NCBI RefSeq assembly: GCF_022828475.1 | Contig: NZ_CP059557.1 | Coordinates: 1,612,001-1,676,000, forward strand | Origin: Saccharopolyspora gloriosae | GTDB taxonomy: Bacteria; Actinomycetota; Actinomycetes; Mycobacteriales; Pseudonocardiaceae | Length of the DNA: 64,000 bases | Reading direction: 5' to 3' | In this document: positions 5,168 through 24,512 of the stretch, piece after piece | Layout of the letters: the number at the start of each line of letters is the position of its first letter | Position numbering within the stretch: the stretch's first letter is position 1 | Notes under the pieces: model-generated | The model's input: only the letters and a program-made list of their open reading frames with translations | Databases searched by the model: none | Told to the model about the DNA's origin: nothing | Made by a program: the position numbers and the translations under genes

Positions 5168-6472
5168 TCAGCAGTTGGGGGACGTGGGTTCTCCGGCGAA
5201 GCGGTCGGCGAGGAACTGCTTGGCGTCGCCGTTGCCCGCGAAGATTCCGCTGAGGTGATCGCTGGGGTAGGTCTTCCAGGTCACGTCCATGCCTTTGGCG
5301 CAGTAGGTTTCGCGCAGCGCCTCGGCCTGCGGCGTGTTCACGATCTCGTCGGTGGTGGCGTGGTACTGGAACACCGGTGCGTTGATGCGGCCTTGGCCGA
5401 GCTTGTTCTCGGCGAGGCGCTGTTGCCATTCCGGAGTGGCCAGCGGGTCGGTGTGGGTGTAGTCGCTGATCTTCTTGAACGGGTACTTGGTCAGCAGTTC
5501 CACGACGCAGTCGTTCTCGCGGGCGTCGGCGAGGTCGGTGCGCCCGGTCTCGTTGAGGTACGAGTCGAGGTTCAGGTCGGGGTAGCTGAAGTCCAGGCCG
5601 AGCGCGGCGAACGCGAGGAAGCCGAAGCCGACGTAGCCGTCGAGTCCGTTCGCGACTTCGTTGAGGTCGGCGGGAACGCCGCCGCCCGCCACGCCGACGA
5701 GGTCGAGTTCGGGCGCGTAGTCCGGTTGCATCTCCCCGGCCCACATGACCGCGCCGCCGCCTTGCGAGTAGCCCTGGAGGGCGACTTTGGCGTCGGGCGA
5801 CAAGCCGGCCTGCGGGAGGCGCTGCGCCGCTCGGACCGCGTCGAGCAGTGCGGGTCCTTCGGAGCGGCCGACGATGTAGGTGGGTTTGTTGGCCTCGCCG
5901 GGTGCGTACCCCTCGTAGTCGGTGAGGGCGACGGCGTATCCGGCGGAGAGCGCGTCGTTGACGGCGGGCTGGTCGTAGAGCGTGCCGCGTTCCATGGCTT
6001 TGGACGGGGCGCACTTGAACGCGGGGCCTTGGGTGCCCGGCCCGAATCCGACGACGTGCGCCTTGGCGGCGTCGACGCCTTTGGGGACCAGGATCGTGCC
6101 GATCACCGTGTTGCGCTGCCCTTGGGCGTTGGTGGACAGGTACATCACCTGCCAGGCGTCGGCGTTGGCGGCATTGCTGCCGGGGAACGCGGGCCGCCAC
6201 CGGATGATGTCGCCGGGCTGCCCTTGCGGTGGTGTGGGCGGGGGCAGGTAGAACGAGTCGTCGAACGGGCCGGGCGGAACGTCGGCGTTGAGCGGTCCGG
6301 GGGCGGCGGGCGACGACGTGCCCGGCGCGGTGACATCAACGGGGTTGCCGGGTTCCGCTGTTCCGGGGGTGGTCGCCTCCACCGGTTGCGCGGCCAGGAC
6401 GGCCAGGACGGCCGCGGCCAGCGCGGCGCCGGTGGCCGTCCGCATCCGGTCGGTGCGGCGGTTCGAAGTCAA
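5168..6472 (-). CDS. Secreted lipase, LIP family (PF03583-like)
   Basis: The 434-residue protein starts with a signal peptide (RMRTATGAALAAAVLAVLAA) and a Pro/Thr-rich linker, followed by a Ser-hydrolase fold with nucleophile elbow GYSQGG, a late Asp (HATTDEIV) and His (SDHLSG). Length and motifs fit secretory lipases that hydrolyse acylglycerols outside the cell. TTG 6472 is the start: GGAGGT lies seven bases upstream and the signal peptide follows at once. It precedes soxR in the same direction with an 88-bp gap; there is no functional link I can see. Confidence 0.82.
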   Translation of the reverse strand: MTSNRRTDRMRTATGAALAAAVLAVLAAQPVEATTPGTAEPGNPVDVTAPGTSSPAAPGPLNADVPPGPFDDSFYLPPPTPPQGQPGDIIRWRPAFPGSNAANADAWQVMYLSTNAQGQRNTVIGTILVPKGVDAAKAHVVGFGPGTQGPAFKCAPSKAMERGTLYDQPAVNDALSAGYAVALTDYEGYAPGEANKPTYIVGRSEGPALLDAVRAAQRLPQAGLSPDAKVALQGYSQGGGAVMWAGEMQPDYAPELDLVGVAGGGVPADLNEVANGLDGYVGFGFLAFAALGLDFSYPDLNLDSYLNETGRTDLADARENDCVVELLTKYPFKKISDYTHTDPLATPEWQQRLAENKLGQGRINAPVFQYHATTDEIVNTPQAEALRETYCAKGMDVTWKTYPSDHLSGIFAGNGDAKQFLADRFAGEPTSPNC

Positions 6473-6574: not shown

Positions 6575-6602
6575 TTATCCGGATTCGGGGAAATCCGGAT
6601 AA
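6575..6602. promoter_or_regulatory. Perfect 11-bp inverted repeat, possible operator
   Basis: Arms TTATCCGGATT and AATCCGGATAA flank a 6-base loop. Each arm itself holds the palindrome ATCCGGAT. It could be a regulator-binding site for the lipase or the lipid operon, or a hairpin; its distance from both genes favours an operator. Confidence 0.4.
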
Positions 6603-6882
6603 TCTTGCGGAAAGATCTTCGAGTGCGCCGTTCGGCAGTGTGAATGTGAAATACTTGCCACGATTTTGCAATACTCTGTTGGGAGTAATCATCTTGGCGG
6701 CCCGGACTGGTATGGACTTGTGTATAGGCTGGTCAGGTAGCTGAGTTCGTCTCCCTGTGGGGATGCCTTGTGTCTCATCCGATGTCAACGGTTATTGTCA
6801 CGTTGGTGATAACAAACTTCCGGTAATTGGTCACCTGGGTTCGTTCGAGATGGCTCCGCGAGTGGGTTGAATGGTCGTTCCT

Positions 6883-6911
6883 TGACACTGTGGAACTCGC
6901 ATGACAATTTC
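6883..6911 (+). promoter_or_regulatory. Predicted promoter of the acyl-AMP ligase-PKS operon
   Basis: TTGACA (6883-6888) and CAATTT (6906-6911) are separated by 17 bp. Transcription would start near 6918, giving a leader of about 80 nt before the start codon at 6999. Confidence 0.45.
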
Positions 6912-6998
6912 TGTCCACTTGCTCGCCGGTGAAGTCGGGCGGTGGTGTCCGTTTTCCCGCCGGCGTCGAATCCCGGACACCTTGTGAAGGGAGTTCTC

Positions 6999-8738
6999 AT
7001 GCTGACGAGGGCCGATGATCCGTTCACCGACCACGCGGCCCGGCTGCTGACGGATCCGCTGGTGACGGCGGCGCAGGAGTCGGGCGACGAGATCGCCCTC
7101 ACCTTCGTCGATTTCGACACCAGCAGGGACGGTGTGGCGTGGTCGCTGTCCTGGTCTGAACTGCACCAGCGGGTCCGGGCGGTGGCGGCGTGGTTGCAGG
7201 CCCGCTGCGAACCCGGCGACCGGGTGGCGATCATGGCCCCGCAGGGCCTGGAGTACGTGGTCGGTTTCCTCGGTGCGGTGCACGCCGGCCTGATCGCGGT
7301 CCCGCTGTTCACCCCCGACCTTCCCGGGCACACCGACCGCTTGGAACGCGTCCTGGAGAGTTGCTCACCGAGCTGCGCGCTGACCTCGAAGAGCTCGTTC
7401 GACCAGGTGCGAGAGATGATCCGCGGGGGTTCGGCGCGCAATTGCGCGGCGGTGGAGACGTTGCCCGCCGCGCTGGCCGACGACTACCGGATTCCGGAGG
7501 CCGGTCCGGACGACCTGGCGTACCTCCAGTACACCTCGGGTTCGACGCGGATCCCCGCCGGTGTCGAGCTGACGCACGCGAACGTGCTGGCCAACGCCCG
7601 ACAGGCGTTGGAGGCGTACGGCGGGACGGAGCCGGGCGCGGTATCGGTGAGCTGGCTGCCGCTGTTCCACGACATGGGGCTGGTGCTGTCGGTGGCGGCT
7701 CCGCTGGTCGGCAACATCCCGTCGGTGCTGATGGATCCGGTGGCTTTCCTGCAGCGTCCGGGGCGTTGGCTGCGGTTGCTCTCGGATCACCCGGGCGCGA
7801 TCAGTGCTGCGCCGAACTTCGCCTACGACTTCTGCGCGGCGCGGGTCGAGGAGTCGGAGAAGGACTGGCTGCGGCTCGACGACGTGATCTCGTTGATCAA
7901 CGGCAGTGAGCCGGTGCGGCCTGCCACGTTGCACCGTTTCAACGAGGCGTTCGCCGAGTGCGGTTTGCGTCCGGAGACGCACCGCTGTTCGTACGGCCTG
8001 GCGGAGGCGACGGTGTTCGTCTCGGTGACCGAGTCCGGCGCGGAACCCAAGGTCGCCGGTTTCGGCCGGGAACAGCTGGCGCTGGGCCGGGCGGAACCGC
8101 CGCGGGATCCGGTGGAGGTGGTCAACGAACTGGTGTCCTGCGGTCGTCCGGTGGGGCAGCGGCTCGTGGTGGTGGATCCGGCTTCGCGGTCGCTGCTGCC
8201 GGACGGCGTGGTGGGCGAGGTCTGGGTGCGGGGTCCGAACACGGGCCAGGGCTATTGGGGCCGCGACGATCAGGACACTTTCCACGCCGAGCTCGCCGAC
8301 GTGACGGCGGACCTTCCCGCGGCCGGCTGGCTGCGCACCGGTGACCTCGGCGCGATCCACGACGGCGAGCTGTTCATCACCGGCCGGATGAAGGACGTGA
8401 TCATCATCGACGGCCGCAACCACTACCCGCAGGACGTGGAGCTGACCGTGGAACAGGCGCATCCCGCGGTGCGCAAGCACCACAGTGCCGCGTTCGCGAT
8501 CACCGGTGAGGACGGTGAGCGGCTGGTGATCGTCGCCGAGTTCTCCCGCCGGGTCGAGGAGGCCGATCGCGATCAGCGGGAGATCACGCGCGCGGTGTGC
8601 GCGGCGGTGTCGGCGGAGCACGGCGTGGTGGTGTCGGACCTGATGCTGGTGGAGCCGGACGTGGTGCCGCGCACGTCCAGCGGCAAGGTCGCGCGCAGGC
8701 TGTGCCGGGAGCGCTACTTGGAGGCCGCCCATGCCTGA
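6999..8738 (+). CDS. Fatty acyl-AMP ligase (FadD32-like)
   Basis: The 579-residue adenylate-forming enzyme has the ATP-binding loop YTSGSTRIPAGVELTH at about residue 178 and the C-terminal hinge GRMKDVIIIDGRNHYPQDVE. The RGRNHYPQDIE-like form of that hinge is typical of acyl-AMP ligases, which load acyl chains on a carrier protein instead of CoA. ATG 6999 follows AAGGGAG at five bases. Its last eight bases overlap the PKS gene, so the pair is translationally coupled. The expected job is to activate a long fatty acid and load it on the PKS N-terminal carrier (Ser39), as FadD32 does for Pks13. Chain length is not predictable here. Confidence 0.9.
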   Translation: MLTRADDPFTDHAARLLTDPLVTAAQESGDEIALTFVDFDTSRDGVAWSLSWSELHQRVRAVAAWLQARCEPGDRVAIMAPQGLEYVVGFLGAVHAGLIAVPLFTPDLPGHTDRLERVLESCSPSCALTSKSSFDQVREMIRGGSARNCAAVETLPAALADDYRIPEAGPDDLAYLQYTSGSTRIPAGVELTHANVLANARQALEAYGGTEPGAVSVSWLPLFHDMGLVLSVAAPLVGNIPSVLMDPVAFLQRPGRWLRLLSDHPGAISAAPNFAYDFCAARVEESEKDWLRLDDVISLINGSEPVRPATLHRFNEAFAECGLRPETHRCSYGLAEATVFVSVTESGAEPKVAGFGREQLALGRAEPPRDPVEVVNELVSCGRPVGQRLVVVDPASRSLLPDGVVGEVWVRGPNTGQGYWGRDDQDTFHAELADVTADLPAAGWLRTGDLGAIHDGELFITGRMKDVIIIDGRNHYPQDVELTVEQAHPAVRKHHSAAFAITGEDGERLVIVAEFSRRVEEADRDQREITRAVCAAVSAEHGVVVSDLMLVEPDVVPRTSSGKVARRLCRERYLEAAHA

Positions 8739-11700
8739 ACGCGCCGAGATCCGCGATCGGCTGACGAGCTGGATCGCCGAGTTGCTGGGGATCGGAGCGG
8801 TCGAGGTCGTCACCGATCGTCCGTTCCAGGAGTTCGGGTTGTCCTCGCGGCAGGCGGTGGAGTTGGCGGGCCGGGTGCAGGACCTGGTCGGTCGCCGGTT
8901 GCCGCCGACGTTGCTGTGGGAGCACCCGACTATCGATCGGCTCGCGGAGGCGTTGGCGGGGGGCGCGGCTGAGGACGTGCCGGACGAGGTCCCGCGGCCG
9001 CGGGAACCGGAGCCGGACGCGCCGATCGCGGTGGTCGGCGTCGGCTGCCGCTTTCCCGGGGCTCGGGGGCCGCAGGGCTATTGGGACTTGCTGTCGGCCG
9101 GTTCGGACGGCATCGGCGTGGTGCCGGAGGGCCGGTGGGAGCGTTTCGCCGGGGCGGATCCGGCGTTGGCGAAGTTGCCGCGAGCGGGCGGTTTCCTCGA
9201 CGGAGTGGACGAGTTCGACGCCGAGTTCTTCGAGGTCTCCCCGACGGAGGCGGCGGTGATGGATCCGCAGCAGCGCCTGCTGCTGGAGGTCGCGTGGGAG
9301 GCGTTGGAGCACGCCGGAGTGGTCCCGTCGGCGTTGCGCGGCAGCGCGACGGGCGTGTTCGTCGGGGTGTCGTCAACGGAGTACGGCGCGTTGACGACGC
9401 GCGATCTGCGCGCGGTGGACGCCTGGACGGGCACGGGCGCGGCGATGTCCATCGTGGCGAACCGGTTGTCGTACTTCCTGGATCTGCGCGGTCCTAGTCT
9501 CGCGGTGGACACCGCTTGCTCGTCCTCGCTGGTCGCGGTGCACCAGGCGTGCGCGAGCCTGCGTTCGGGGGAGAGCCGGGTCGCGCTGGCCGGTGGGGTG
9601 AATCTGCTGCTGTCCCCGGCGATCACGGCGAACTTCCACCGGGCGGGCGCGTTGGCGGGCGACGGCCGGTGCAAGGCGTTCGACGGAGCGGCCGACGGCA
9701 TCGTGCGCGGTGAGGGTTGCGGCGTTGTGGTGCTCAAGCGGCTCGCGGACGCGAATCGGGACGGTGACCGGATCCTGTCGGTGGTGCGGGGTTCGGCGGT
9801 GAACTCCGATGGGCGTTCCAACGGTCTGATGGCGCCGAATCCGGCGGCGCAGGCCGATTTGCTGCGCCGGGCGTACGCTCACGCCGACCTCGATCCATCC
9901 ATTGTGGACTATGTCGAGGCGCACGGGACGGGCACGTTGCTCGGCGACCCGATCGAGGCCGAAGGGCTGCGCGCGGTGTTCGCCGAGGGGCGGACCGAGC
10001 GGCGTCCGCTGCTGCTCGGTTCGGCGAAGACGAACCTCGGGCACTTGGAGGCGGCGGCGGGAATCGCCGGGTTGATCAAGGTGGTGCTGGCGATGCACCA
10101 CGGCCGCCTGCCCGCGAGCCTGCACTACTCGAACCCGAACCCGCACATCCCGTTCGAGGAGGCGAAACTCGAGGTGGTCGCGGCGGCGCGGAACTGGCCG
10201 AAGTACTCGGGCACGGCCCGCGCCGGAGTGTCGGGTTTCGGGTTCGGCGGCACCAACGCGCACGTGGTGCTGGAGGGGTGGCGGCGGATGCCGTCGCGGC
10301 GCCGCGAACCGGACGGCGCGGGGGTGCATTCCCTCGTTGTGTCCGGGGCCACGGAGCACCGGTTGCGCCGGTCGGCGGCGGATCTGGCGGAGTGGCTGGA
10401 CACTCCGGTGGGGCGGGCTGCCGCGCTCAACGACGTCGGCCACACCTTGGCCTGGCGACGTGCCCGGCACGCGGAGCGCGGTGTGGTCGTGGCCCGCGGC
10501 CGGGAGGAACTGCTGGCGGGCCTTCGCGGCCTCGCGGCCGGGACCGGGGGAGTGCGCGGTCGCGCCACGGCCCGGTCGAAGGGCGTCGTGTGGGTCTTCT
10601 CGGGTTACGGGTCGCAGTGGAGCGGCATGGCCCGCGAGCTGCTGGCGGACGAACCGGTGTTCGCCGCCGAGGTCGATCGCCTCGACTCGGATTACCGGGC
10701 GCGTTGCGGGTTCTCGTTGCGCGCGGCGCTGCTCGACGACCAGGACTTCCAGGACGTGCGGCGCACGCAGCTGGTGCTGTTCGGCTTGCAGGTCGCCTAC
10801 GCCGCGATGTGGCGCGCGCACGGGGTGGAGCCGGCGGCGGTGATCGGGCATTCGCTCGGTGAGGTCGCGGCCGCTGTTGTGTCCAGCGCGCTGGAGGTGT
10901 CCGACGGGTTGCGCGTGATGGTCGCCCGGTCCGAGTTGCTGTCCGAGGTGGACTCGTCCGGTGCCGGGGCGATGGCGGCGGTGGAGGCTTCCGAGGCGGA
11001 GGCGGTAGAGCTGTCGCGGCTGTTCCCCGGTGTGACGGTCGCCGTGCGGGCGGCGCCGCGCCGCTGCACGGTCGCGGGTCCCGCCGACGAGGTGACCCGG
11101 CTGGTGTCGCACGTCGAAGGGCACGGCCGGATGGCCCGCAAGCTCGGCGTCACCGGCGCGGGTCACACTTCGGCGGTGGACGGCGTGCTGCCCCGGCTGC
11201 GGGAGGAGCTCGCCGGACTCGCCCCGCGCGATCCGTCCACATTGGTGTTCAGCACGGTGGATCCCGGCGTGCGGCCCGCGTTCGACGCCGAGTACTGGGT
11301 GCGGAACCTGCGCAGTCCGGTGCGCTTCGAGCAGGCGGTGCGCGCCGCCGCGGACGCCGGGTTCGACGCGGTGGTGGAGGTGGCGCCGCATCCGGTGGCG
11401 TCGTCGGCGATCGAGGAGACGCTGACCGCGGCGGGAGCGGTGGACCCGGTGGTGGTGTTCACCGGCCGCCGTGGCACCGACGACACCGTGACCTTCCACG
11501 CCGCGCTGGCGGAACTGCACGCCACGGGGCGGGTTCCGTGGGAGGCGTATCGACGGGGTCGGCTGGTGGATCTGCCGCTGCCGTCCTGGCAGCACGAATC
11601 TCATTGGGTGGCGCCGAGTTCGGCTCCGGCGTTGCCGGGGCATCCGCTGCTGGGGGTGCGGGTGGACCTCCCCGACGGTGGCTGCGCGTGGCGCGGGGAC

Positions 11701-14700
11701 GTCGGTGTGGAGTCGTTGCCGTGGCTGGGTGACCACCGGGTGCAGGACACGCCGGTGCTGCCCGCCACCGGGTACCTGGAGATGGCGTTCGCGGCGGCGG
11801 CCGAGGTGCTGGACGTGGAACCGGTCGAGCTGCTGGTGGAGTCGCTGGAGCTGCACCGGGTGCTGCCGTTGGCGGAGTCCGTGCCGGTGACGACCACGTT
11901 CCGGCCGGACGGCGCCTGGTCGGCGCGCGTGGAGGTGCACACCCGATCGATCGCCGGGAACTGGACCTGTCACGCCGCCGCCGTGCTGAGCCGCTCCGGG
12001 CAGGATCGGCCCACCGTCGGGTCCGATGTGGATGGTGATCCGGTCGAGTTGTACGCGTTCCTGCGCGCGGCCGGTCAGCATTACGGGCCGGCGTTCCAGG
12101 GCGTGCGTTCCGCGCGGGCGGCCGGGGGAATCGCGGTCACCGAGGTCGAGCTTCCCGCCGAGGCCACGGACGCGGAGCGCTTCGCCGCACACCCGGCGTT
12201 GGTGGACGCCTGCCTGCAAAGTCTCATCGCCGCCGGTATCGGCCCCGGCGGCGAGGCCGCGGCGGGCGGCGGAGGCATCGGCGTTCCTGTTGAGCTGCGC
12301 GGCGTCCGGGTGCTGCGCCCGGTGCCCGATCAGGTGCGCTGCCACGCGCGACTGCTCTCGGGCGGCGCGGAGCCTACCGGGTCGGTGCTGGTCACCGATG
12401 TGGACGGTGATCCGGTGCTTGAGATCGCCGAGGTCCGCGTCCGCGGCCTGCAGGCCCCTCCTCGCCCGCTGGAGGAGGCGTTCCTGGAATTGCGCTGGGA
12501 GTCGGCGCAGCTGCCGCCGAACTCGGGCGTCGAACCGGGCAGCTGGCTGGTGCTGGGCGACGGCGAGCAGGTGACCGCGGCTTTGCGCGACGCCGGGCAG
12601 CGAGTGGTGCACGGCAATGCCCGCAGGCCCGGTACCGGGCTCGATATGCTCGCCGGGGACGCCGATCGGCCGCCGCGCGGAGTGGTGCTGGCCGTCGATG
12701 GGGACGGCCGCACGTTCGATCGCGGCAAGCGGCAGGTGCTCGCGGTGGCCGAGGCGGTGCGCGAACTGTCCGCGCGCGACCTCGGAGCCCGGCTGTGGCT
12801 GTCCATATCGGACTCCTCAAGTGCCGGGTTGCGGGCGCTGATCCGGGTGCTGGCGTTGGAACACCCGGAGTTGCGGGCGTCGCTGGTGGACTCCGACGGT
12901 GCGGTGCCCGCTTCGCTGGCGGCGGAGCTGCTCGCCGACAGCGCCGAGGACGAGGTCCGCTGGCGTGGCACCGAGCGGACGGTGGCTCGCCTGTACCGGG
13001 CCGAACCGGGACGGCCGCGACCCGGCCACGTCGTGCGCCCCGGCGCCTACGTGATCACCGGTGGTCTCGGTGGCCTGGGCCGCACCGTCGCGCGGTGGCT
13101 AGCCGAACGCGGTGCGCGCCGGATCGTGCTCAGCGGCCGAAATGCGCCCTCTGCGGAGGCCGCTGCCGACATCGCGCGCATGGAGGAGTCCGGCGTCGAC
13201 GTCCGCGTGATCGGCGGCGACGTGTCGACGAAGGGAGTCGCCGAACGGCTGGTCGCCGTCGCCGGCGAGGGCGGGATGCCGGTGCACGGCGCGGTGCACG
13301 CCGCCGGGGTGCTCCGCGACGGCCCGGTCGCGGAACTGGACGAGGACGCCTTGGCCGAGGTGTGGCGGCCGAAGGCGCGCGGCGCGTGGCGGTTGCACGA
13401 GGCCACCGCGCACCTGGAACTGGACTGGTGGGTGGTGTTCTCGTCGGCGGCCGCGCTGCTCGGTTCACCCGGCCAGGCCGCCTACGCCACCGCGAACGGC
13501 TGGGTCGACGAATTGGTGCGGATGCGCCGCGAGCAGGGGCTGGCGGCGGAGACGATCCAGTGGGGACCGTGGAGCGAAGTGGGCGGCGCGACCACCTCAC
13601 CGCTGGCGGCTGTGCTGGACCCGATCGGCCCGGCCGAGGGGATGGAGGCGTGGGAGGCGGTGCTCAGGTCGGGCCGGGCGGCGACCGCGGTGGTGCGGTT
13701 CGACGCGGACCGGGCGGTGGAGCACTTCCCGGCGTTGCGGTCCCGCCCGGTGTTCGGGCTGCTGCTGACGGCCGCCGCGCAGCGGGCGGAGAGCAGGTTC
13801 GACGTGGCAGCGTTGCCGGGTGACCCGGCCGCCGCGGTCCGGGTCATCTCTGCGCACTTGGTCAGCGAGATCGCCGGAATCCTGGGCGGTGCGGCGGAGA
13901 ACCTCGATCCGTTGACGCCGCTGACGATGCTCGGGCTGGACTCGTTGATGGCGACTCGGGCGCGCAACGCGGTGGAACGCGACTTCGGTGTGGTGCTGCC
14001 CGCGACGTTGTTGCTGCGCGGCGCGAACCTGGACGAGCTGGCCCGGCATTTGGCGGCCGAGCTGGGACTCGGTGTCGCACCGGAGACCGCGGGTCCCACC
14101 ACGATCGGCCCGCGGGACGCGACGGAGCGCTGGCTCGCGCACTTGTGGGCGCAGGTCCTGGATGCCGTCGAGTTCGGCGTGACCGACGAGTTCGCGGCCC
14201 TGGGCGGCACCGCGGAGCAGGCTGAGCAGGTCGCGGAGCGGATTCGGGAACGCCTGGGCTCCCGCGACGAGGTCGCGGAGCTGTTCGCCGTGCCGACGGT
14301 GGCGGCGATGGCGGATCTGCTGCGGCACCGCTTCGAAGGAGCCGACGGCCCGGTGCGGGCGTTGCGCGAGTCCGGTTCGCGACGGCCGCTGTTCCTGTTC
14401 CATCCGGCGGGCGGCCCCACCAGCGTGTACCAGCCGCTGGTGGCTGGGCTGGGCGCGGATCAGCCGTGCTTCGGGCTGGAGCGGCTGGACGATTTGGACA
14501 CCGTGGAGCTCAAGGCGGACCGCTACGTGGAGTTGATCCGCGAGCGGCAGCCGGAAGGGCCGTACCGGCTCGGCGGTTGGTCGTTCGGCGGATGCCTCGC
14601 CTACGAGACGGCGGGCAGGCTCACCGAGCTGGGCGAGCAGGTCGAGTTCGTCGCCCTGATCGACACCATCCTGCCGCTGCCCGATCCGCACGTTACGCAG

Positions 14701-15180
14701 CGCGAACTGGTGCTGCGCCGGTACGAGCGGTTCGCCGAGCACATCGAGCGCACCTACGGCGTGGCGCTGGACCTGCCGTGGCAGGAGTTGGCGGAACTCG
14801 ACGAGGACGAGCAGATGCGGCGGGTGATGACCGCACTGTCCTCATCGGACATCGGTATCGGCGCGGGCGTGCTGCACCACCAGTACACGTCCTATGTGGA
14901 CGCTCGGATCGCGGAGCGGTACCGGCCCGAGCCGTTCGACGGCCGGGTGCTGCTCTACCGCGCGCAGGAGGCGGAGGCCACCACGACGACCTTGGATCCG
15001 CGTTACCTGCGCACCGACGGGGCGCTGGGCTGGGACGAGATCGTCCCCGGGCTCGAAGTGGTCCGAGTGCCCGGAAACCACCTCTCCATGATCGACCCGC
15101 CGAACGTGGACGTCATCACCACGCACCTCGCGCGGGTCTTGGACCTGGAAGCACCGCGGTTGACCAGGGAGGGCGCATGA
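8731..15180 (+). CDS. Type I polyketide synthase ACP-KS-AT-DH-KR-ACP-(degenerate carrier)-TE, Pks13-like
   Basis: In order: N-terminal carrier with GLSS, Ser39; ketosynthase from about 97, Cys263 in DTACSSS plus both catalytic His motifs ([14 protein letters not shown]); acyltransferase with Ser708 in GHSLGE; dehydratase with His1002 ([12 protein letters not shown]) and Asp1159 (HPALVDA); ketoreductase with GGLGGLG near 1445 and Tyr1585; carrier with Ser1738 in GLDSL; a second carrier fold whose Ser is replaced by Ala1828 (LGGTAEQA); and thioesterase with Ser1951 in GWSFGG and His2117. The N-terminal carrier, upstream acyl-AMP ligase and downstream carboxyltransferase mirror mycobacterial Pks13, but Pks13 has no DH or KR. 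The product should be an alpha-branched or linear beta-hydroxy or 2-enoyl acid released by the TE. No enoylreductase is seen. Confidence 0.9.
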
Positions 15181-16736
15181 CCGGCACGGCGGAACGCATC
15201 GAAGACCTGCGGCGGCGGCACGGCGAGGCGGTGCACGAGGCCGACCGGCGGGCGCGGATCAAGCAGCACGCCAAGGGAAAGCTCACCGCCCGTGAACGCA
15301 TCGAGCTGCTGCTCGACGAGGATTCCTTCGTGGAGCTCGACGAGTTCGCCGTGCATCGGGGAACGTCGTACACGCCGGGGGAGCCGCGACCGTTCGGCGA
15401 CGGCGTGATCACCGGTCACGGCACCGTGGACGGGCGCCCGGTGTGCGTGTTCGCGCAGGACTTCACCGTCTTCGGCGGCAGCATGGGCGAGGTCTGCGGC
15501 GAGAAGGTGCTCAAGGTGATGGACCTGGCGATGCGCATCGGCTGCCCCATCGTCGGCATCAACGACTCCGGCGGTGCCCGCATCCAGGAGGGCGTGGTGT
15601 CGCTGGCGTACTACGCGGAGCTGGGCAGGCGCAATTCCCTCGCTTCGGGCGTCATCCCGCAACTGTCGTTGATCATGGGGCCGTGCGCGGGCGGCGCGGT
15701 GTACTCGCCGGCCATCACCGATTTCACGGTGATGGTGCGCGGTACTTCGCACATGTTCGTCACCGGGCCGGAGGTGGTGCGGTCGGTGACGGGCCAGCGC
15801 ACCGGTGCCGAGGAGCTCGGCGGCGCGCAGATCAACAGCGAGCTCTCCGGCAACGCCCATCACTTGGCCGAGGACGAGGCGGACGCGATCGATTGGGCGC
15901 GCACGCTGCTGGGTTTCCTGCCGTCGAACAACTCGGATCCGCTGCCGGACTACGACCCGGCCGGTGATCTGGGCCGGTCCGCGGAGCTCGACGCGCTGGT
16001 GCCGGACGAGCCGCACCAGGCCTACGACATGCGTCGAGTGCTGGAGCTCGTCCTCGACGAGGGCGATTTCCTGGAGGTGCAGCCGTTGTTCGGCCGCAGC
16101 ATGCTGTGCGCGTTCGGCCGGATCGACGGGCGCAGCGTCGGCGTGGTGGCGAACCAGCCGTTGCACAACGCGGGGACGATCGACATCGACGCGTCGGAGA
16201 AGGCGGCGCGGTTCGTGCGGTTCTGCGACGCGTTCAACCTGCCGCTGCTCACGTTCGCCGACGTGCCGGGCTATCTGCCGGGCCTGGAGCAGGAGCGCCA
16301 CGGCATCATCCGGCGCGGCGCGAAGCTGATCTACGCGTATTCCGAGGCGACGGTGCCGAAGGTGACGGTCGTGGTGCGCAAGGCCTACGGCGGCGGCTAC
16401 GCCGTGATGGGTTCGAAGCACCTGGGCGCCGACGTGAACCTGGCCTGGCCGACGGCGGAGATCGCGGTGATGGGCGCGTCCGGAGCGGTGAGCCTGTTGC
16501 ACCGCCGGGAGCTGGCGGAGGCCGCGGCGAACGGAACCGAGGAAGCGGTGCGCGCGAAGCTGATCGAGGAGTACCGCTCGACGCTGGCCACGCCGTACAT
16601 CGCGGCTGAGCGCGGCTACGTCGACGCCGTGATCCGCCCGGCGGAGACGCGCACTCACCTGAGTCGCGCGCTGCGCATGCTGGCGACGAAACGCCAGGAA
16701 GTACCGCTGAAGAAGCACAGCACCATGCCGTTGTGA
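15177..16736 (+). CDS. Acyl-CoA carboxylase carboxyltransferase (AccD4/AccD5/PccB type)
   Basis: The 519-residue protein carries both crotonase-fold halves of a carboxyltransferase, with the acyl-CoA site GPCAGGAVYSPAITDF and the biotin-side motif YGGGYAVMGSKHLGAD. It transfers CO2 from carboxybiotin to an acyl-CoA, making malonyl-, methylmalonyl- or long-chain carboxyacyl-CoA. ATG 15177 overlaps the PKS stop (ATGA). No biotin-carrier alpha subunit is present, so it must share one encoded elsewhere. By position it corresponds to accD4 of the fadD32-pks13-accD4 locus and should supply the PKS extender unit; the substrate (short or long chain) cannot be settled by eye. Confidence 0.9.
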   Translation: MTGTAERIEDLRRRHGEAVHEADRRARIKQHAKGKLTARERIELLLDEDSFVELDEFAVHRGTSYTPGEPRPFGDGVITGHGTVDGRPVCVFAQDFTVFGGSMGEVCGEKVLKVMDLAMRIGCPIVGINDSGGARIQEGVVSLAYYAELGRRNSLASGVIPQLSLIMGPCAGGAVYSPAITDFTVMVRGTSHMFVTGPEVVRSVTGQRTGAEELGGAQINSELSGNAHHLAEDEADAIDWARTLLGFLPSNNSDPLPDYDPAGDLGRSAELDALVPDEPHQAYDMRRVLELVLDEGDFLEVQPLFGRSMLCAFGRIDGRSVGVVANQPLHNAGTIDIDASEKAARFVRFCDAFNLPLLTFADVPGYLPGLEQERHGIIRRGAKLIYAYSEATVPKVTVVVRKAYGGGYAVMGSKHLGADVNLAWPTAEIAVMGASGAVSLLHRRELAEAAANGTEEAVRAKLIEEYRSTLATPYIAAERGYVDAVIRPAETRTHLSRALRMLATKRQEVPLKKHSTMPL

Positions 16737-16752
16737 AGCGAGCAGGGCATCG

Positions 16753-16788
16753 GCGGCGCCGCCTCGGCAGAGTCCGGGGCGGCGCCGC
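16753..16788 (+). terminator. Strong GC hairpin after the carboxyltransferase gene
   Basis: Arms GCGGCGCCGCC and GGCGGCGCCGC (11 bp), extended inward by CGG/CCG after one mismatch, enclose a 6-base loop. No T tract follows. It may end or attenuate transcription between the carboxyltransferase and the esterase. Confidence 0.5.
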
Positions 16789-16824
16789 TTGCGAGGTCGA
16801 CCGTGAGGGAAGGGCACCAGGAAA

Positions 16825-17919
16825 ATGCACAGTGGACGGTGGTTCCGGCGGCCGGTGACGTGGTCGGTGGTGGTGAGCGCCGCGTTGCTGGCAGGCTCGG
16901 TCGCGGCACCGTTGCCGGCGGCGTCCGATCCGGTCACCGCTGCGACGACGGCGGAGCACGACGGGGCGCGGGTGCTGCAGGAGAACTGGCTCGACGCCCG
17001 CACCGTCGACCTGGTGATCTACTCGCCCGCGCTGCGTACCAGCGCACCGGTGCGGCTGCTGCTTCCTGAAGGCTGGACGCGGGGCGCGGACCGGGCGTGG
17101 CCGGTGCTGTACCTGCTGCACGGCTGCTGCGAGGACGCGGATTACCGGGCGTGGACGAAGTTCACCGATGTCCGCGAGTTCCTCGCCGACGAGGACGTGC
17201 TGACCGTCATGCCCAGCGGCGGTCCCGCTGGTTTCTACACCCGGTGGACGAATTTCGGTGCGGACGCACCGGATTGGGAGGCGTTCCACCTGCGGGAGCT
17301 GCGCGGCATCCTGGAGCGCGACTACGGGGCCGGGCAGCGCCGCGCGGTGGCGGGGCTGTCGATCGGCGGCTACGGAGCTTCCGCCTACGCCTTCCGGCAC
17401 CCCGGCATGTTCCGCGCGGCGGCCTCCTTCAGCGGCCTGCTCAACACCTTGCAGCCCGCCGTGCCCGGAGTGATCAAGGGAATTCTGCTGCGGGAAGGGG
17501 AGGATCCGTTCGCGATGTGGGGCGATGAGCTGCTGGATCACCGGACCTGGTCGGAGCGCAACCCGTTCGACCACGCGGAGGCGTTGCGCGGCACCGCGCT
17601 CTACGTCTCCTGCGGCAACGGCCTGCCCGGTCCGCTGGACGATCCCGGTTCGCTGCCCGATCCGCTGGAGCCCGCCGCGTTGTCCACGTCGCAGGTGATG
17701 ATCGCGCGGCTCAAGAACCTGGGTATTCCCGTCACCGAGGACTTCTACGGACCCGGCCTGCACGACTGGCCTTATTGGGAGCGGGAGCTCCACCGCGCCT
17801 GGCCGATGTTCGCGGAGCGCTTGGGTTTGGGCGTGGACCGTTCCGGGGCGAGTGCGAACGCCGTGGCCACCGCACCGACCAGCACCAGCCCCGCGGCCAT
17901 CCGCATGCCCGCCGAATAA
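16825..17919 (+). CDS. Antigen 85/esterase D-family secreted acyl esterase
   Basis: The 364-residue protein has an N-terminal signal sequence (RPVTWSVVVSAALLAGSVAAPLPA) and an alpha/beta-hydrolase domain with nucleophile Ser179 in GLSIGGYGAS, a LLHGCCEDADYRAW segment and the late HDWPYWE His motif, as in the mycolyltransferase/FbpA-like branch. Relatives move long acyl chains onto trehalose or cell-wall sugars, or hydrolyse such esters. It sits 88 bp behind the carboxyltransferase, so it may act on the PKS product outside the membrane. The last 30-odd residues read into the opposing transporter gene and look unlike the family. Acyltransferase and plain esterase cannot be told apart here. Confidence 0.8.
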   Translation: MHSGRWFRRPVTWSVVVSAALLAGSVAAPLPAASDPVTAATTAEHDGARVLQENWLDARTVDLVIYSPALRTSAPVRLLLPEGWTRGADRAWPVLYLLHGCCEDADYRAWTKFTDVREFLADEDVLTVMPSGGPAGFYTRWTNFGADAPDWEAFHLRELRGILERDYGAGQRRAVAGLSIGGYGASAYAFRHPGMFRAAASFSGLLNTLQPAVPGVIKGILLREGEDPFAMWGDELLDHRTWSERNPFDHAEALRGTALYVSCGNGLPGPLDDPGSLPDPLEPAALSTSQVMIARLKNLGIPVTEDFYGPGLHDWPYWERELHRAWPMFAERLGLGVDRSGASANAVATAPTSTSPAAIRMPAE

Positions 17920-19235
17920 CCGCTGGTGTAGGCGGCGTCAGCGGTGGCGCCGCCGGCCAGCGCGGCGCCGCTCCACGCGGAGAGCACCACGCCGACCACC
18001 GCCACCCCGAGCACTCCGGACGCCTCCCGCGCGGCGCTGACCATGGCCGAGGCGACGCCCGCGGTACCGGGCGGGGCCGCCGAGAGCACCGCCGAGGTCA
18101 ACGGCGTGATCAGCGCGGATCCGAGGCCGATGGACAGCAGTCCCGGCATCAACCCCCACACCGAGCTCTGCGCGTCCGCCTGCGCCAGCAGCCACAATCC
18201 GAGCGCCACCAGCGCCATCCCGGTCGTCACGATCGAGCGCGCGCCGAACCGGGAGCTCAGCGGCGGCACCAGCGGCACGCACAGCACGAGCAGTCCCGCC
18301 AGCGGTACGAACACCAGCCCGGCGGCGCTGGGGGACAACTCCAGCACGTCCTGCAGGAACAGGGAGGTGTAGAGCAGCGTGCCGTTGACCCCGACGCCCC
18401 ACAGCACTTGCGCGATGGTGCCGCCGCCGAAAATCCTGTTGCGCACCAACGACAATCGCAGCATCGGTTCCGCCACCCGGCGTTCCACGATGATCAGCAC
18501 CGGCACGCCGGCGAGCGTCACCAGCGCCGCGCCGATGATCAACGGTGCGCCGAATCCGATGCTCTGCCCTTCCACCAGCGCGAAACTGCCCGCCGCCAGC
18601 ACCACTGTGGACAGTGCGAGTCCGGCGGGGTCCAGCCGCCGCAGCGGAATCCGCCCGGTTCGCGGCCGGGTGTCGGGCAGCCCCCACCACACCAGCGCCA
18701 TCGTCGCCAGCCCGGTGGGCAGGTGCAGGAAGAAGATCCAGCTCCAGTGCAGGTGTTCGGTGAGCACGCCGCCGACCACCGGCCCGAGCGCGAGCGCCAC
18801 CGCCAGCGAGGCCGTCCAGATCCCCGCGGCCAGGTCCCGGTGTTCCCGGTCGATGTCGGCGGCGAGCACCGCCAGCGAGGCGGGCATCACCAGCGCCGCG
18901 GAGGCGCCCTGCGCGAACCGGACCCAGATCAGCACCTCGGCGGACTCCGCGAACCCCGCGGTGACCGAGGTGACGATCAGCGCCGCGAGCCCGATCAGCA
19001 GGATCCGCCTGCGCCCGGCCAGGTCCGCGAGCCTGCCACCGACGATGAGCAGGCTCGCGAACGCGAGCACGTAACTGCTGACGATCCATTCGAGCTGCGG
19101 GACGGTCGCGCCGAGTTCGGTCTGCACGGTGGGCAGCGCGACGTTGACGACGTTGTTGTCCAGTGCGGTGACGAACCCGGCCACGGCGAGGGCCAGCAGC
19201 ACCGGCCCCTGCCGCACCGGGGTGTCCGCGCTCAT
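17772..19235 (-). CDS. DHA2-family (EmrB/QacA) drug:proton antiporter
   Basis: The 487-residue protein has about 14 hydrophobic helices, the D-motif near the first helix (TALDNNVVNVALPTVQTEL) and motif A (GGRLADLAGRRRILLIG), so it belongs to the 14-helix major facilitator exporters of hydrophobic or cationic compounds. ATG 19235 overlaps the stop of the upstream PucR regulator by four bases, so the two are one unit and the regulator probably governs it. Its 3' end overlaps the convergent esterase gene by 148 bp; the last 25 residues are basic and polar and could be read-through past an older stop. The substrate is unknown; proximity to the lipid operon may be coincidental. Confidence 0.85.
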   Translation of the reverse strand: MSADTPVRQGPVLLALAVAGFVTALDNNVVNVALPTVQTELGATVPQLEWIVSSYVLAFASLLIVGGRLADLAGRRRILLIGLAALIVTSVTAGFAESAEVLIWVRFAQGASAALVMPASLAVLAADIDREHRDLAAGIWTASLAVALALGPVVGGVLTEHLHWSWIFFLHLPTGLATMALVWWGLPDTRPRTGRIPLRRLDPAGLALSTVVLAAGSFALVEGQSIGFGAPLIIGAALVTLAGVPVLIIVERRVAEPMLRLSLVRNRIFGGGTIAQVLWGVGVNGTLLYTSLFLQDVLELSPSAAGLVFVPLAGLLVLCVPLVPPLSSRFGARSIVTTGMALVALGLWLLAQADAQSSVWGLMPGLLSIGLGSALITPLTSAVLSAAPPGTAGVASAMVSAAREASGVLGVAVVGVVLSAWSGAALAGGATADAAYTSGYSAGMRMAAGLVLVGAVATAFALAPERSTPKPKRSANIGQARWSSRSQ

Positions 19236-20527
19236 GTCGTCCCGCCCTGGCCGTCGTCCGGAGCCGCCGGTGCCTCCATGGGCGCGGTCGACCGCCGGTC
19301 CGGCCCGGCGGCGTGTTCTTCGGTGAGGGCGCCGTAGGGGAGCAGCCGCCCGGCGGCCCGCAGGGCCATCTCCAGTTCGAACCTGGCCTGCGGGTCGTTG
19401 AGGTCCGCGCCGAAGAGGTCTTCGAGCTGGTGCAGGCGGTAGCGCACCGTCTGGGGGTGCACTCGTAGTCGTTGCGCCACTTCCGGCGCACCGCCACGGG
19501 TCTGCAGCCACGCCAGCAGCGTCTCGGCCAGCCGGACCTGCTGTTTCGGTTTGAGCTGTTCCAGCGGAGCCAGCCGGGTGTGGATGATCTGCCGGGTCAG
19601 GTTCTCGTCGCTGAGCAGCAGCAGGCTGGACAGGTGGTCCTTGCAGTGCAGCACGGGTTCGTTGGGCACGACGCCGGCGTTGGAGAGTTCGAGCACCCGT
19701 CGCGCCCAGCGCAGCGCGTGCGGTGCCTGCGAGATCTCCACCGGTGGGCTGAGGACCATCCGCCAGCCGGTGAGCTGCTTCTCCCACGGGATGTCGCCGC
19801 TGCACGGCACCAGCAGGTGCGGCTGGGTGCATTCGAGGTCGATGAGCGCTTCCCGCCGGGACAGCGGGTTGCTGTGCGGTTCGTGCTCGTCGGCGCGTTG
19901 CAGCGCGGCGACGATGACGGTGTCCGGCCACTTCCAGCGGGCGGCCGCAGCGGCTTCCTCCAGGATTCGGTACGGCGGCTGGGGATCGGTGAGCAGCAGT
20001 TCCAGCAGCCGGCGCCGTCTGCGCGCCTGGGTTCCGGCGGCGCGGGCCTGCGCTTCGGCGAAGCCTTCGACCGATAGCGCGGAGAGTTCGTCGATGTGGG
20101 CGTAGATGGCTTCGCCGAGCAGCAGCATGGTGCGCGGTGCGACGCGGGCTCGTTCGCCGATGCGGGCGGTGCGCCGCCAGGCGAGGCGGGCGCCGAGGCG
20201 GTAGGCGGCCTGCAGGCTGTCGAGGCTGCGCCCTTCGTGCATTTCGGCTTTGCCGAGCGCGCGGTGCACTTCGGCGCAGCGTTCCGGTGGTGCGGTGGGG
20301 TCGGCGATCTGGTCGACGAATTGGCTGAGCGCCTCTTCGACGCCGCGGCGGATGGCGTGCACGTATTTGTCGTCCATCGGCCGGGCGTATTCGGGGATGC
20401 GCCGCTGGATCTCGCTGAGGATCTGCGTGGCCAGGCTGTTCATCGCGGGACGCAGGATCGGAGCCAATTCGCTGGGCAGGGCCGCCCACAGATCCGGGGC
20501 CTGGGGATGGATCGCCTTCGTCAGCAT
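19232..20527 (-). CDS. PucR/CdaR-family transcriptional regulator
   Basis: The 431-residue protein ends in the PucR-type HTH (RLAETLLAWLQTRGGAPEVAQRLRVHPQTVRYRLHQLEDLFG), preceded by a GGDEF-like middle region and an N-terminal sensor-like helical domain (DDKYVHAIRRGVEEALSQF). Such proteins regulate catabolic or efflux genes beside them. ATG 20527 has GAGG upstream at short spacing. It is the first gene of a two-gene unit with the exporter. A perfect 12-bp inverted repeat about 65 bp upstream is the likely operator for this or another regulator. Confidence 0.8.
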   Translation of the reverse strand: MLTKAIHPQAPDLWAALPSELAPILRPAMNSLATQILSEIQRRIPEYARPMDDKYVHAIRRGVEEALSQFVDQIADPTAPPERCAEVHRALGKAEMHEGRSLDSLQAAYRLGARLAWRRTARIGERARVAPRTMLLLGEAIYAHIDELSALSVEGFAEAQARAAGTQARRRRRLLELLLTDPQPPYRILEEAAAAARWKWPDTVIVAALQRADEHEPHSNPLSRREALIDLECTQPHLLVPCSGDIPWEKQLTGWRMVLSPPVEISQAPHALRWARRVLELSNAGVVPNEPVLHCKDHLSSLLLLSDENLTRQIIHTRLAPLEQLKPKQQVRLAETLLAWLQTRGGAPEVAQRLRVHPQTVRYRLHQLEDLFGADLNDPQARFELEMALRAAGRLLPYGALTEEHAAGPDRRSTAPMEAPAAPDDGQGGTT

Positions 20528-20591
20528 GATCCTCTTTCCTGCTGGAGGCGACGTCGGACCCGGTAAGTGGAGCCGGTGGCCACGTCGCCAC

Positions 20592-20619
20592 AAAGTACCT
20601 ACTAGCGAGTAGGTACTTT
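20592..20619. promoter_or_regulatory. Perfect 12-bp inverted repeat upstream of the PucR-exporter unit
   Basis: Arms AAAGTACCTACT and AGTAGGTACTTT flank the four bases AGCG. The core GTACCTAC recurs twice upstream of the lytic transglycosylase (54436 and 54466) and I saw it nowhere else in the window. It looks like a TetR- or MarR-style operator shared by two loci. Confidence 0.6.
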
Positions 20620-21286: not shown

Positions 21287-21296
21287 CCGTCGCCCG

Positions 21297-21966: not shown

Positions 21967-22932
21967 TCAGCCGTTCCCCCGGGCCTCGCTGTCGCGCAGT
22001 GCCGCCTCGTCCTCGTCGCCGAACTCGTCCTCCAGCCGTTCCGGTGCGTGGTCCACGTCGATGCGTTCCACCGGTGTGCCGCGCGCCGACTCGATCGCCT
22101 TGATCCGCCGCGCGGCCCGGTCCGCGGCGTACTCGAACAACCCCTCGATCCGCATGTCGAACGGATCGTCTTCCCAGTTGTTCAACGAGTGCTCGATCTG
22201 AGCGATCGCGTGCGGCAGCAGGGCCTCCATCCGCTCGGTCACGATCTCCCAGTTCGCGTCGTCGGCGGCGACGTGCCTGCGGCAGGTGAACGTGCCCCAC
22301 GCCATGTGCCGCCGCTCGTCCTCGCTGATCCGCCTGATCAGCTCCTGCATGCCGGGCAGGATTCCGTTGCGCTTGCACGTGGTGTTCCACAGGAAGTAGC
22401 CGGTCAGCGCGAGCACGCCTTCGACGAGGTGGTTGTAGGTGACCGAGGCGCGGACCTGGTTCGCCGGGCTCGGATCGTGATCGAGCGCGTGCAACGCCTC
22501 CGGCAGCGCCTCGTAGAAGATCGCCCGGTAGCCGGGGTTGCCGGCCACGTGCGGATGCAGGTCGTCGCGCACTCCGACGGCGTCGAGCCAGCGCCGGAAA
22601 CCTTGGGTGTGCTTGGCTTCTTCGAACATGAACTGGCTCAGGTAGAGCTCGTCGGCGGGCCTGCCCTCGGCGGCCATCGCGGCTTGGAACGGCCGGATGT
22701 CCTCTGTCACCGCCTCTTCGCCGCCGATGAACTGGGCGCAGAGCATGGTCGCGGCGAACCGCTGCTCGTCGGTGAGCCCGCGCCAGTCCACGGCGTCCTG
22801 GGAGAAGTCGATCGCCCCGGGGTCCCAGAACTTGCGATTTCCCTTCTGCCACAACCGGAACGGGAGGGCCTCGGGATTGATCCTGGCCTGGTCGGGCCGG
22901 GAAGGTCTCCGGTCGTGTCGGGCGGTGGTCAT
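21967..22932 (-). CDS. R2-like ligand-binding oxidase (R2lox)
   Basis: The 321-residue ferritin-like protein resembles the small subunit of ribonucleotide reductase, but all residues of the R2lox cofactor site are present: metal ligands E72, E105, H108, E171, E206 and H209, and V75 and Y166, the pair that forms the Val-Tyr crosslink in the Mycobacterium tuberculosis protein Rv0233 (numbering here is shifted by four). R2lox holds a Mn/Fe centre and a bound fatty acid; its physiological substrate is unknown. ATG 22932 has AAAGGAGC four bases upstream and overlaps the stop of the preceding hydrolase (ATGA), so the two are coupled. Confidence 0.9.
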
Positions 22933-24512
22933 GGCAGCTCCTTTCCGTCGCGCGACGCCAGCTCCAGCGTCGCCGGGGACGTCGCCTGCCCGCGCAGTTC
23001 CAGCGGGGCGCCGTCGGTGTTGTGGTCGAGGAAGAACAGCGGGTCCTCGGTGTCGATGACCAGCGAGATCCGGTGGCCCGCGGGCACGTCGTAGGCGGTG
23101 GGCGGCAGCGGGGTGTCGACCTGCAGCGGAGCTCCGGGCGTCGCGCCCTCCCAGGAGTAGGGGGCGTAGGAGATGAGTCGTCCGGTGCCGGTGTCGTCCA
23201 CGTCGTAGAGGTAGGCGACGAGCATGCCCTCCGGCGCGGGTGGCACCGCGGTGAGCCGCAGGTGCGGACTTCCGCGCAGCACTTCGGTTTCGGTGAGCGG
23301 GGGACTGGTCCACCGGGCCGCGGCCGTCGTGTCGAGCGCGGGCAGGAACGCCGTCGGCGGGTTCCCGGTGAGCGCTTCGAGCGTGTAGGTCACCAGTGGC
23401 ACACCGCCGTTCGCGATCGTGTCTCGTCCACTGTGGAGCGTGTTGGTCCAGTCGGTGGGGGCGTCGGTGGTGAGTTCTTGCTCGCCGGAGAGGAAGAAGC
23501 GGTCCGTTCGCGTCGCGATGTGCCGCCAGTCCGGGTAGTTCTCCCGTGGGCGGTCGGTGGCGCCGCGAGGTTGCAGCACGACGGGGGCGCCGTCGGGCTC
23601 TGCTCCGCGCAGGTGCGTGTCGAACCAGCGGTAGGTGTCGTTCCAGGCGTCGTTCGGCAGCCCGAGCAGCCCGCTGGTCTCGGCCGCCGCGTGCTCGCCC
23701 GGCACCAGTTCCAGCTTGCTCGGCACTTCCAGCCGTTGCTGGAAATCCGCCAGCTGACCGGGCGGGAACACCGTTTCGCTCCACGTGTTGAGCATCAGGA
23801 CGGCGGGCCGGTTCCGATTGATCAGGTCCACATAGGACGAAGGTGAGCGCTGCCGGGACCATTCGGTCACCGCCTCGCGGTCGGCGTCGGTGATGTACTT
23901 GTCCAGCATCTCCCGGCTCTCGTCGGACAGGTTCCCGTTCTGCTCACCGGAGATCCGCAGCACCATCGCGACCGCGGCATGCCGGGTGCGGTTGCTGAAC
24001 AGCGACTCCACCAGGTCGGCCCAGCCGCTCATCGAGGCGACGGCCCGGATCCGCGGGTCGAACGCCGAGGCCAGCACGCTGATCCCGGCTCCGTAGGAGA
24101 TGCCGCCGACGCCGATCCGCGCGGGATCGGATTCGGTGTTCGCCAGCGTCCAGTCGATCACGTTGGAGACGTCGCTGATGTCGTCCGGCCCGGCCACTTC
24201 CACTTCGCCGCCGGATTCGCCGAATCCCCGCGCGCCGTAGGACACCGTCACGTAGCCGCGGGAGGCGAGTTCCTCGCAGGGCATGATGTTCTGCGTGCTG
24301 CCGCCGCCCCACGCGGCGACGAGCACCGCCACCGGGTGCGGGCCGGGATCAGTGGGTTCGCACACCGCGGCGCGCAGCTCGGTGCCGTCGGCGGCGGTGA
24401 TGCCGACCAGCCGGGTGGCGGTCGAGCCGGTGGCCGTCGCGGCGGGTGCGGTGGCGGCGAGCACGGCCGCCGCGGTGAGCAGCGCGGCGACCGGCGTGGT
24501 TCGGCGAGGCAT
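22929..24512 (-). CDS. Exported CocE/X-Pro dipeptidyl-peptidase (S15)-like hydrolase
   Basis: The 527-residue protein has a signal peptide ([20 protein letters not shown]) and an alpha/beta-hydrolase domain with nucleophile elbow GGISYGAG, followed by a C-terminal jelly-roll-like domain ([22 protein letters not shown]) of the S15/CocE superfamily. Members cleave X-Pro peptides, esters or amides; the actual substrate is unknown. ATG 24512 follows AAAGGG at eight bases. Its stop overlaps the R2lox start. A hydrolase made together with a lipid-binding oxidase could feed it a released acyl chain, but that is inference. Confidence 0.8.

Follow-up and report, generated by a model that had tools for sequence, protein, structure and literature searches.

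A reducing Pks13-type operon in Saccharopolyspora gloriosae and its probable kinship with the mycolic acid synthase

We analysed a window of 64,000 nucleotides (the whole stretch of DNA under study, positions 1612001-1676000 of the 6.88 Mb single-contig genome of Saccharopolyspora gloriosae), in which four intact plus-strand genes spanning 6999-17919 encode a fatty acyl-AMP ligase (FAAL), a polyketide synthase (PKS), an AccD carboxyltransferase and a secreted esterase (Table 1). The FAAL and PKS genes overlap by 8 nt and the PKS and AccD genes by 4 nt (ATGA), and because of these overlaps the translational coupling of the first three genes holds; a sequence-only reading of this DNA, made before our analysis, had described the same four genes and the same coupling, in agreement with our coordinates and overlaps. 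A GTG at 6942 is a possible alternative start within the FAAL open reading frame, and the ATG at 6999 sits after GAAGGGAG. The esterase, whose signal peptide was read by eye, is 88% identical to its counterpart in Saccharopolyspora sp. NFXS83 (L101). The Saccharopolyspora-like host considered in the sequence-only reading is correct.

Table 1. Features of the operon, domains of its synthase and neighbouring genes (positions within the window)
Feature	Positions	Strand	Basis
Fatty acyl-AMP ligase (FAAL), 579 aa	6999..8738	+	PF00501
Reducing Pks13-type PKS, 2149 aa, ACP-KS-AT-DH-KR-ACP-ACP*-TE	8731..15180	+	Pfam domains, motifs, Pks13 model
ACP1, N-terminal carrier (EFGLSSR)	8758..8955	+	PF00550 at residues 10-75, motif
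KS	9019..10281	+	PF00109/PF02801, trees
AT, motif GAGHTSAVD	10588..11529	+	PF00698
DH, catalytic His and Asp present	11641..12456	+	PF21089, PF14765
KR, S-Y-N intact	13042..13578	+	PF08659
ACP2, serine present (GLDSL)	13843..14043	+	PF-type carrier match, motif
ACP*, serine-less carrier (LGGTAEQ) preceding TE	14107..14331	+	PP-binding stretch, motif
TE of Pks13 type	14383..15150	+	Pfam Thioesterase
AccD carboxyltransferase, groups with AccD4, pocket Ala (GGGYAVMG)	15177..16736	+	PF01039, tree, alignment
Secreted mycoloyltransferase-like esterase, triad S179-E282-H313 (HDWPYW)	16825..17919	+	PF00756
Secretory lipase (LIP), divergent from operon	5168..6472	-	PF03583
MFS exporter, 487 aa, no internal stop; convergent with esterase gene, overlapping its end	17772..19235	-	matches MFS genes beside relatives' operons
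PucR-type regulator, 4 nt overlap with MFS gene	19232..20593	-	PF13556; recurs beside relatives
R2-like ligand-binding oxidase (R2lox)	21967..22932	-	NF006199 499.8 bits, above cut-off 286
CocE/S15-type hydrolase, 4 nt overlap with R2lox gene	22929..24512	-	PF02129; TIGR00976 above cut-off

The Pfam matches of the PKS (ketoacyl-synt, Acyl_transf_1, PKS_DH_N/PS-DH, KR, three PP-binding stretches and Thioesterase) give acyl carrier (ACP), ketosynthase (KS), acyltransferase (AT), dehydratase (DH), ketoreductase (KR) and thioesterase (TE) domains, and the catalytic residues are in place, namely GLSS in ACP1, C-H-H in the KS, GHSLG in the AT, S-Y-N in the KR, GLDSL in ACP2 and S-D-H in the TE. The DH retains both its catalytic H and D, with D instead of the usual residue at one motif position. 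From the letters alone the order had been given as ACP-KS-AT-DH-KR-ACP-TE; DH and KR with their catalytic residues are indeed there, and the end of the protein has to be redrawn with two carriers before the TE, the second of which (ACP*) lacks the phosphopantetheine serine. Since this serine is missing, ACP* cannot carry the phosphopantetheine arm; it keeps carrier-like helices in a structure model, and the serine is present in only one (L128) of 37 aligned non-Pks13 family members (20 class A, 15 class B and 2 class C rows, window included). The nearest matches of ACP* in the PDB are peptidyl carrier proteins (PCPs) of nonribosomal peptide synthetases (NRPSs; 2.1e-14), the psiACP of Pks13 (6C4V) following at 0.0046, a hint that this end of the enzyme, ACP* with the TE, came from an NRPS-like PCP-TE.

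The best NCBIfam model of the PKS is that of Pks13, the mycolic acid synthase (NF040607, 1411.8 bits, below the cut-off of 2100). Among 298 genomes of the order, 53 exceed this cut-off, and every such match among those listed is in the mycolate family f8. The best PDB relative is again Pks13, with a MAS/Pks2-type synthase second, the TE is nearest to the Pks13 TE, and the AT motif GAGHTSAVD is identical to that of one Pks13 (L194). By the curated cut-off the window PKS is not a Pks13, but on present evidence it appears to work like one.

The partner genes were compared in the same way. By sequence, the esterase is nearest to the corynebacterial and antigen 85 (Ag85) mycoloyltransferases (C. 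glutamicum PS1, 3.7e-48; Ag85A, 1.3e-20) and has the Ser-Glu-His triad and HxWxYW of the Ag85/Cmt enzymes; the 19 Ag85/Cmt rows cluster by themselves (100/98), and the window esterase stands outside this clade of mycolate-bacteria enzymes. In the AccD tree, which carries a long-branch warning on its outgroup rows, 22 operon AccDs and 8 AccD4 form a 30-row clade (88/99) apart from AccD5 and from the nearest other copy in the genome (67% identical to the operon AccD), with the operon AccDs beside, not inside, the AccD4 rows; row names such as AccD4, AccD5, PpsA-type and MAS-type were assigned from gene context, score and recall. The pocket position that reportedly governs acyl-chain choice, from work on Streptomyces carboxylases, holds Ala in 22/22 operon AccDs and 8/8 AccD4, Cys in 4/4 AccD5 and, in the 67%-identical other copy of the genome, Asp. 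The first letter of the AT motif is G in all 62 AccD-linked PKSs, in all 10 Pks13 and in 7 of the 27 PKSs without AccD (99 rows, repeated genomes among them), as would suit an AT that takes up what its own AccD makes. The window FAAL scores 579-568 bits with the best NCBIfam FAAL models, FAAL_FadD32 (NF038339) being at 568.2, below its cut-off of 975. The kinship with the FadD32-Pks13-AccD4-Ag85 set proposed in the sequence-only reading is thereby supported for PKS, AccD, TE and esterase; a kinship of the FAAL with FadD32 is possible, the FadD32 model giving much the same score as other FAAL models and the FAAL tree having no root.

Operons of this family are widespread, and the window holds one of them. 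We scanned the contigs of named genomes with an alignment of 11 esterases and obtained 62 loci (flanks up to 10 kb), of which 51 hold a PKS of the window type, 48 a FAAL and 41 an AccD. No PKS was found within these flanks in 11 loci, six of them from Actinopolyspora, and one Actinopolyspora genome has FAAL-PKS-AccD on another contig (L065). The hosts are Saccharopolyspora, Amycolatopsis, Actinopolyspora, Kutzneria, Actinokineospora, Streptoalloteichus, Sciscionella and Herbihabitans and, more distantly, Svornostia, a metagenome-assembled genome (MAG) of the Solirubrobacteraceae and another that bears a Bifidobacterium label. The operon of L150, a MAG filed as Bifidobacterium breve, has the Svornostia operon as its partner at 100/100 in the KS+AT trees, and the species label is probably wrong. 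At three loci of Herbihabitans and Sciscionella (L141, L146, L149), an Ag85-like esterase without PKS lies about 3 kb from an MMPL gene. Within the genus, the AT was found in four of five other genomes (G001, G002, G004, G005), the fifth (G003) giving no match at threshold. In a class-wide draw the esterase was present in 33 of 296 genomes (E <= 1e-60), seven of those in f8; among 12 of these loci examined, eight have a PKS within the same 20 kb, one being a true Pks13 (L265), and four (L255, L257, L263, L264) have no PKS in that interval. Counts over the loci from relatives' genomes (G-loci) and the esterase scan are not species counts because several genomes occur in both (L061=L101, L063=L102, L069=L104, L079=L108, L066=L122, L098=L132, L073=L143 and L074=L144 among the repeats).

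Built-in DH and KR, which had been read off this one synthase, are real and the rule across the family. With hidden Markov models built from 20 family members (seeds counted too), both domains were found in 32 of the 34 non-Pks13 PKS-TE genes of L061-L099 and in 48/48 of L101-L162, and neither was found in the 20 Pks13 rows, which represent 17 distinct genes (L163/L196, L167/L173 and L169/L175 are repeats). DH scores were weak (58-65 bits) in three f31 loci. The two exceptions, L093 and L097, and L258 from another family are synthases outside f8 that have the Pks13 layout ACP-KS-AT-ACP-TE with neither DH nor KR, and stand with a FAAL and an Ag85-like gene, to which the L258 locus adds an AccD.

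Because pairwise scores alone are misleading, trees were built. The KS-only tree (85 rows, quick) joins the family with Pks13 at 89, an inner set with Pks13 at 98 and L093/L097 with Pks13 at 94. In the KS+AT tree (66 rows, careful), the family, Pks13 and L083, a FAAL-loaded synthase within a larger PKS cluster, group at 98/93, and a clade that unites Pks13 with the class of the window and some class-B members, the outer class-B clade excluded, reaches 100/98; a second tree that includes loci of further families (61 rows) gives 99/93 for the joint clade and 96/94 for the inner one, which is less resolved. The window KS+AT falls in the Pks13 lineage, outside the true-Pks13 clade itself. A place of KS and AT inside ordinary modular clades had been named beforehand as what would speak against the reading; in the KS and KS+AT trees the family stands with Pks13, and the modular, MAS-type and PpsA-type synthases sampled branch elsewhere. 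On these trees, a common lineage of the family and Pks13 is well supported and the nesting of Pks13 inside the reducing family appears likely. Some f8 mycolate genomes (L188-L193, L200) also hold a FAAL with N-ACP synthases, FAAL-loaded enzymes which we take to be PpsA-type, whose KS is pairwise nearer to the window KS than that of most true Pks13.

Pks13 itself seems to carry traces of such a reducing enzyme. For the Mycobacterium tuberculosis enzyme, a pseudo-dehydratase (DH*, a dead half-DH) after the AT and a non-functional ACP before the TE are described (PMC11649247), the psiACP of Pks13 being PDB entry 6C4V (PMC9210659). The sequence-only reading's statement that mycobacterial Pks13 has no DH accordingly needs a qualification, the published dead half-DH (PMC11649247). 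In our searches, the ACP* profile matches 13/13 Pks13 directly before the TE (22-37 bits; other carriers no more than 14 bits in the same search). The post-AT region of Pks13 (16 rows, linker cut off) aligns by hhalign with the family DH at a score of 73.9 (E 8.7e-11), against 46.1 for nine other DHs, 22.0 for six MAS/PpsA-type DHs, 11-18 for KR, KS, AT and TE profiles and at most 22.7 for 40 column-shuffled versions. Within the family, seven outer-clade DHs score 47.9 and seven inner DHs, over five draws, 54.7-65.2; the catalytic-His stretch of the DH is absent from Pks13 in the alignment. We read DH* and psiACP as remnants of an enzyme resembling the window PKS. As its dead half-DH and dead carrier match the family DH and ACP*, Pks13 may be seen as a stripped descendant, and it is probably a reduced member of the reducing family, whose lineage would have lost the KR and much of the DH while keeping the dead DH* and dead carrier.

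The reading we favour, holding it with somewhat more belief than doubt, is that the operon encodes a mycolate-type lipid condensation system in an actinomycete group reported without mycolic acids, in which a FAAL-loaded acid and an AccD-made extender undergo one condensation with built-in reduction, Pks13 being a reduced member of the family. Loading, carboxylation, condensation, release on sugar and transfer outside the cell are modelled on FadD32-Pks13-AccD4-Ag85 (PMC4064979, PMC2568869, PMC9900942). By analogy with FadD32 and Pks13, the FAAL would activate a fatty acid as acyl-AMP and load it on ACP1, from which the KS would take the chain; AccD would carboxylate a second acyl-CoA, probably a long one, the AT would load this extender on ACP2, and the KS would join the two chains in one Claisen condensation. 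The condensed thioester, alpha-branched and with a beta-keto group, may then be processed by KR and DH into a beta-hydroxy or a 2-enoyl acid, and no separate reductase would be needed because both act within the synthase; in mycobacteria, beta-keto reduction is carried out by a separate reductase (PMC2568869). ACP* may only position the TE, which would pass the acid on to an acceptor that may be a sugar; an MFS or MMPL pump might export the product, and the secreted esterase would transfer the acyl group at the cell surface. By analogy we infer an alpha-branched beta-hydroxy or 2-enoyl acid as the product, and likewise its identity, chain length and acceptor; the product proposed in the sequence-only reading, an alpha-alkyl acid of the beta-hydroxy or 2-enoyl kind carried by a surface glycolipid, fits the AccD and AT signatures.

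Several observations weigh against this reading and should be set beside it. The sequence shows the domains and their residues, the gene coupling, the linkage and the kinship, and from it the product, the chain lengths, the outcome of reduction and the acceptor are predicted. Pairwise, the window KS scores higher with PpsA-type KSs (518-579 bits) than with 18 Pks13 loci (465-495; L265 reaches 539), and only the trees place it with Pks13. L093/L097 pair with Pks13 in the KS-only tree and in neither KS+AT tree, and an approximately unbiased (AU) test of all non-Pks13 members together gave p 0.074 in one data set (not rejected) and p 0.025 in a second (rejected), for a group named after the first tree was seen, so that one of the two tests supports the nesting of Pks13. 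The DH* preference narrows in size-matched draws: family DHs (n=9, 20 draws; 47.2, 62.0 and 71.0 as minimum, median and maximum) still score above nine other DHs (46.1), and their margin over 15 pooled other DHs (52.1) is modest. The FAAL tree, without outgroup, has the same subclades as the KS trees, and in it the Pks13 FAALs are one side of a branch while PpsA-type FAALs adjoin the outer reducing clade. The clade of operon AccDs with AccD4 is unstarred, 27 of 89 non-Pks13 PKSs have no AccD nearby, and an independent-pairs test of the AccD/AT link rests on three starred pairs, none against the trend and too few for significance. Four of the 35 aligned members of classes A and B (L070, L071, L086, L099) have a disrupted His motif in the DH, and two (L092, L158) have another residue for the KR Tyr; judging by these single members, which have lost one or the other, the reducing steps are being lost independently in some parts of the family.

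With methylmalonyl- or malonyl-CoA as a short extender, the product would be a beta-hydroxy or 2-enoyl acid with a 2-methyl branch rather than an alpha-alkyl acid, destined for a secreted glycolipid like glucolypsin or cycloviracin, and we regard this as unlikely while giving it serious attention. AT motifs such as YASH and VASH suggest methylmalonyl and occur in some members without AccD, and the nearby MFS exporter and PucR regulator suit a secreted metabolite. Kibdelosporangium albatum is placed in Pseudonocardiaceae. It is the source of cycloviracin, and the 2-methyl-3-hydroxy acyl chains of glucolypsin provide a precedent (PMC4365757). The window AccD, however, groups with AccD4 and has its pocket residue, and the window AT shares its motif with the Pks13 of L194. 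That the operon makes true mycolic acids, overlooked in Saccharopolyspora, is very improbable: the AccD4-like AccD, the Pks13-like TE and the mycoloyltransferase-like esterase would suit it, and arabinogalactan, the mycolate anchor, is reported in Pseudonocardiales and Actinopolysporales, but the same paper reports these orders without mycolic acids (PMC6194230), with an intact DH the beta-hydroxyl group would tend not to survive, and the PKS and FAAL scores do not reach the cut-offs of the Pks13 and FadD32 models. That the PKS is an ordinary modular one with an esterase gene beside it by chance, for which the other large PKS clusters of the genome might speak, is hardly credible and was rejected on locus linkage and trees, the PKS being kept in 51/62 esterase loci and the window KS being separated from sampled modular KSs of the same genome.

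Set against known systems, the operon shares with FadD32-Pks13-AccD4 plus Ag85/Cmt the gene set, the N-terminal ACP, the KS/AT lineage and AT motif, the dead carrier before the TE, the TE type, the AccD grouping and pocket residue, and the esterase triad with HxWPYW. It differs in the full DH and KR, where Pks13 is reported with a dead half-DH, in scores below the Pks13 and FadD32 cut-offs, in esterases grouped apart from Ag85/Cmt and in hosts reported without mycolic acids. PpsA-type synthases resemble it in a FAAL beside ACP-KS-AT-(DH)-KR-ACP and in a high pairwise KS score, whereas no TE was found in them and the N-ACP KSs lie in a separate clade. MAS/Pks2-type iterative synthases, the second-best PDB relatives, have the KS-AT-DH-KR order in part; unlike the window PKS, they have no N-terminal ACP and no TE was found (four loci), and their KS clade is separate. 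The macrocyclic glycolipids of the glucolypsin/cycloviracin type are alike by product type only, with hydroxylated long acyl chains on sugars in actinomycetes (PMC4365757). In the papers searched, which were mainly open-access, we found no account of a reducing Pks13-type operon.

The neighbouring lipase, MFS, PucR, R2lox and CocE genes lie on the strand opposite to the operon, within 5168-24512; at L069, CocE, R2lox, MFS, FAAL, PKS, AccD, esterase and PucR are all on one strand. The secretory lipase recurs in 7/35 G-loci and 19/62 esterase-scan loci, and R2lox in 7/35 and 2/62, respectively. R2lox and a CocE-type hydrolase stand beside the lipid operon in the window and in L061-L064, L068, L069 and L075, representing four genus codes. 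The physiological function of R2lox was called unidentified in 2019 (PMC6399176), and alkane hydroxylation by a Geobacillus R2lox was described in 2024 (PMC10867098); in some genera R2lox now gains a lipid-pathway neighbourhood. MMPL exporters occur near the operon in 7/35 G-loci, and the one protein tested (L076) has MmpL3 as its best NCBIfam model, at 209 bits far below the cut-off of 1400. Outside the window, its genome contains a single MMPL frame of 923 aa, and a further match is weak and partial.

The outer membrane of the tuberculosis group is built of mycolic acids, which are said to occur in no order but its own (PMC6194230), and AccD4 is said to be confined to mycolate bacteria (PMC4064979). 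A close, reducing version of the condensation and transfer set in many genera reported without mycolates qualifies the exclusivity of AccD4 at the gene level. The family also supplies a concrete model of what Pks13, its dead DH* included, descended from, leads us to expect a branched lipid not yet described in common producers of antibiotics, and throws light on a possible origin of mycolic acids. We see the scales as evenly balanced on the wider proposal that the mycolic acid synthase of mycobacteria and corynebacteria descended from a reducing lipid synthase that still builds alpha-branched envelope lipids in many mycolate-free actinomycetes, DH* and the dead carrier being its fossils and a separate reductase, CmrA, having replaced the built-in KR. 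If this is true, Saccharopolyspora and Amycolatopsis would have a hidden, mycolate-like surface lipid.

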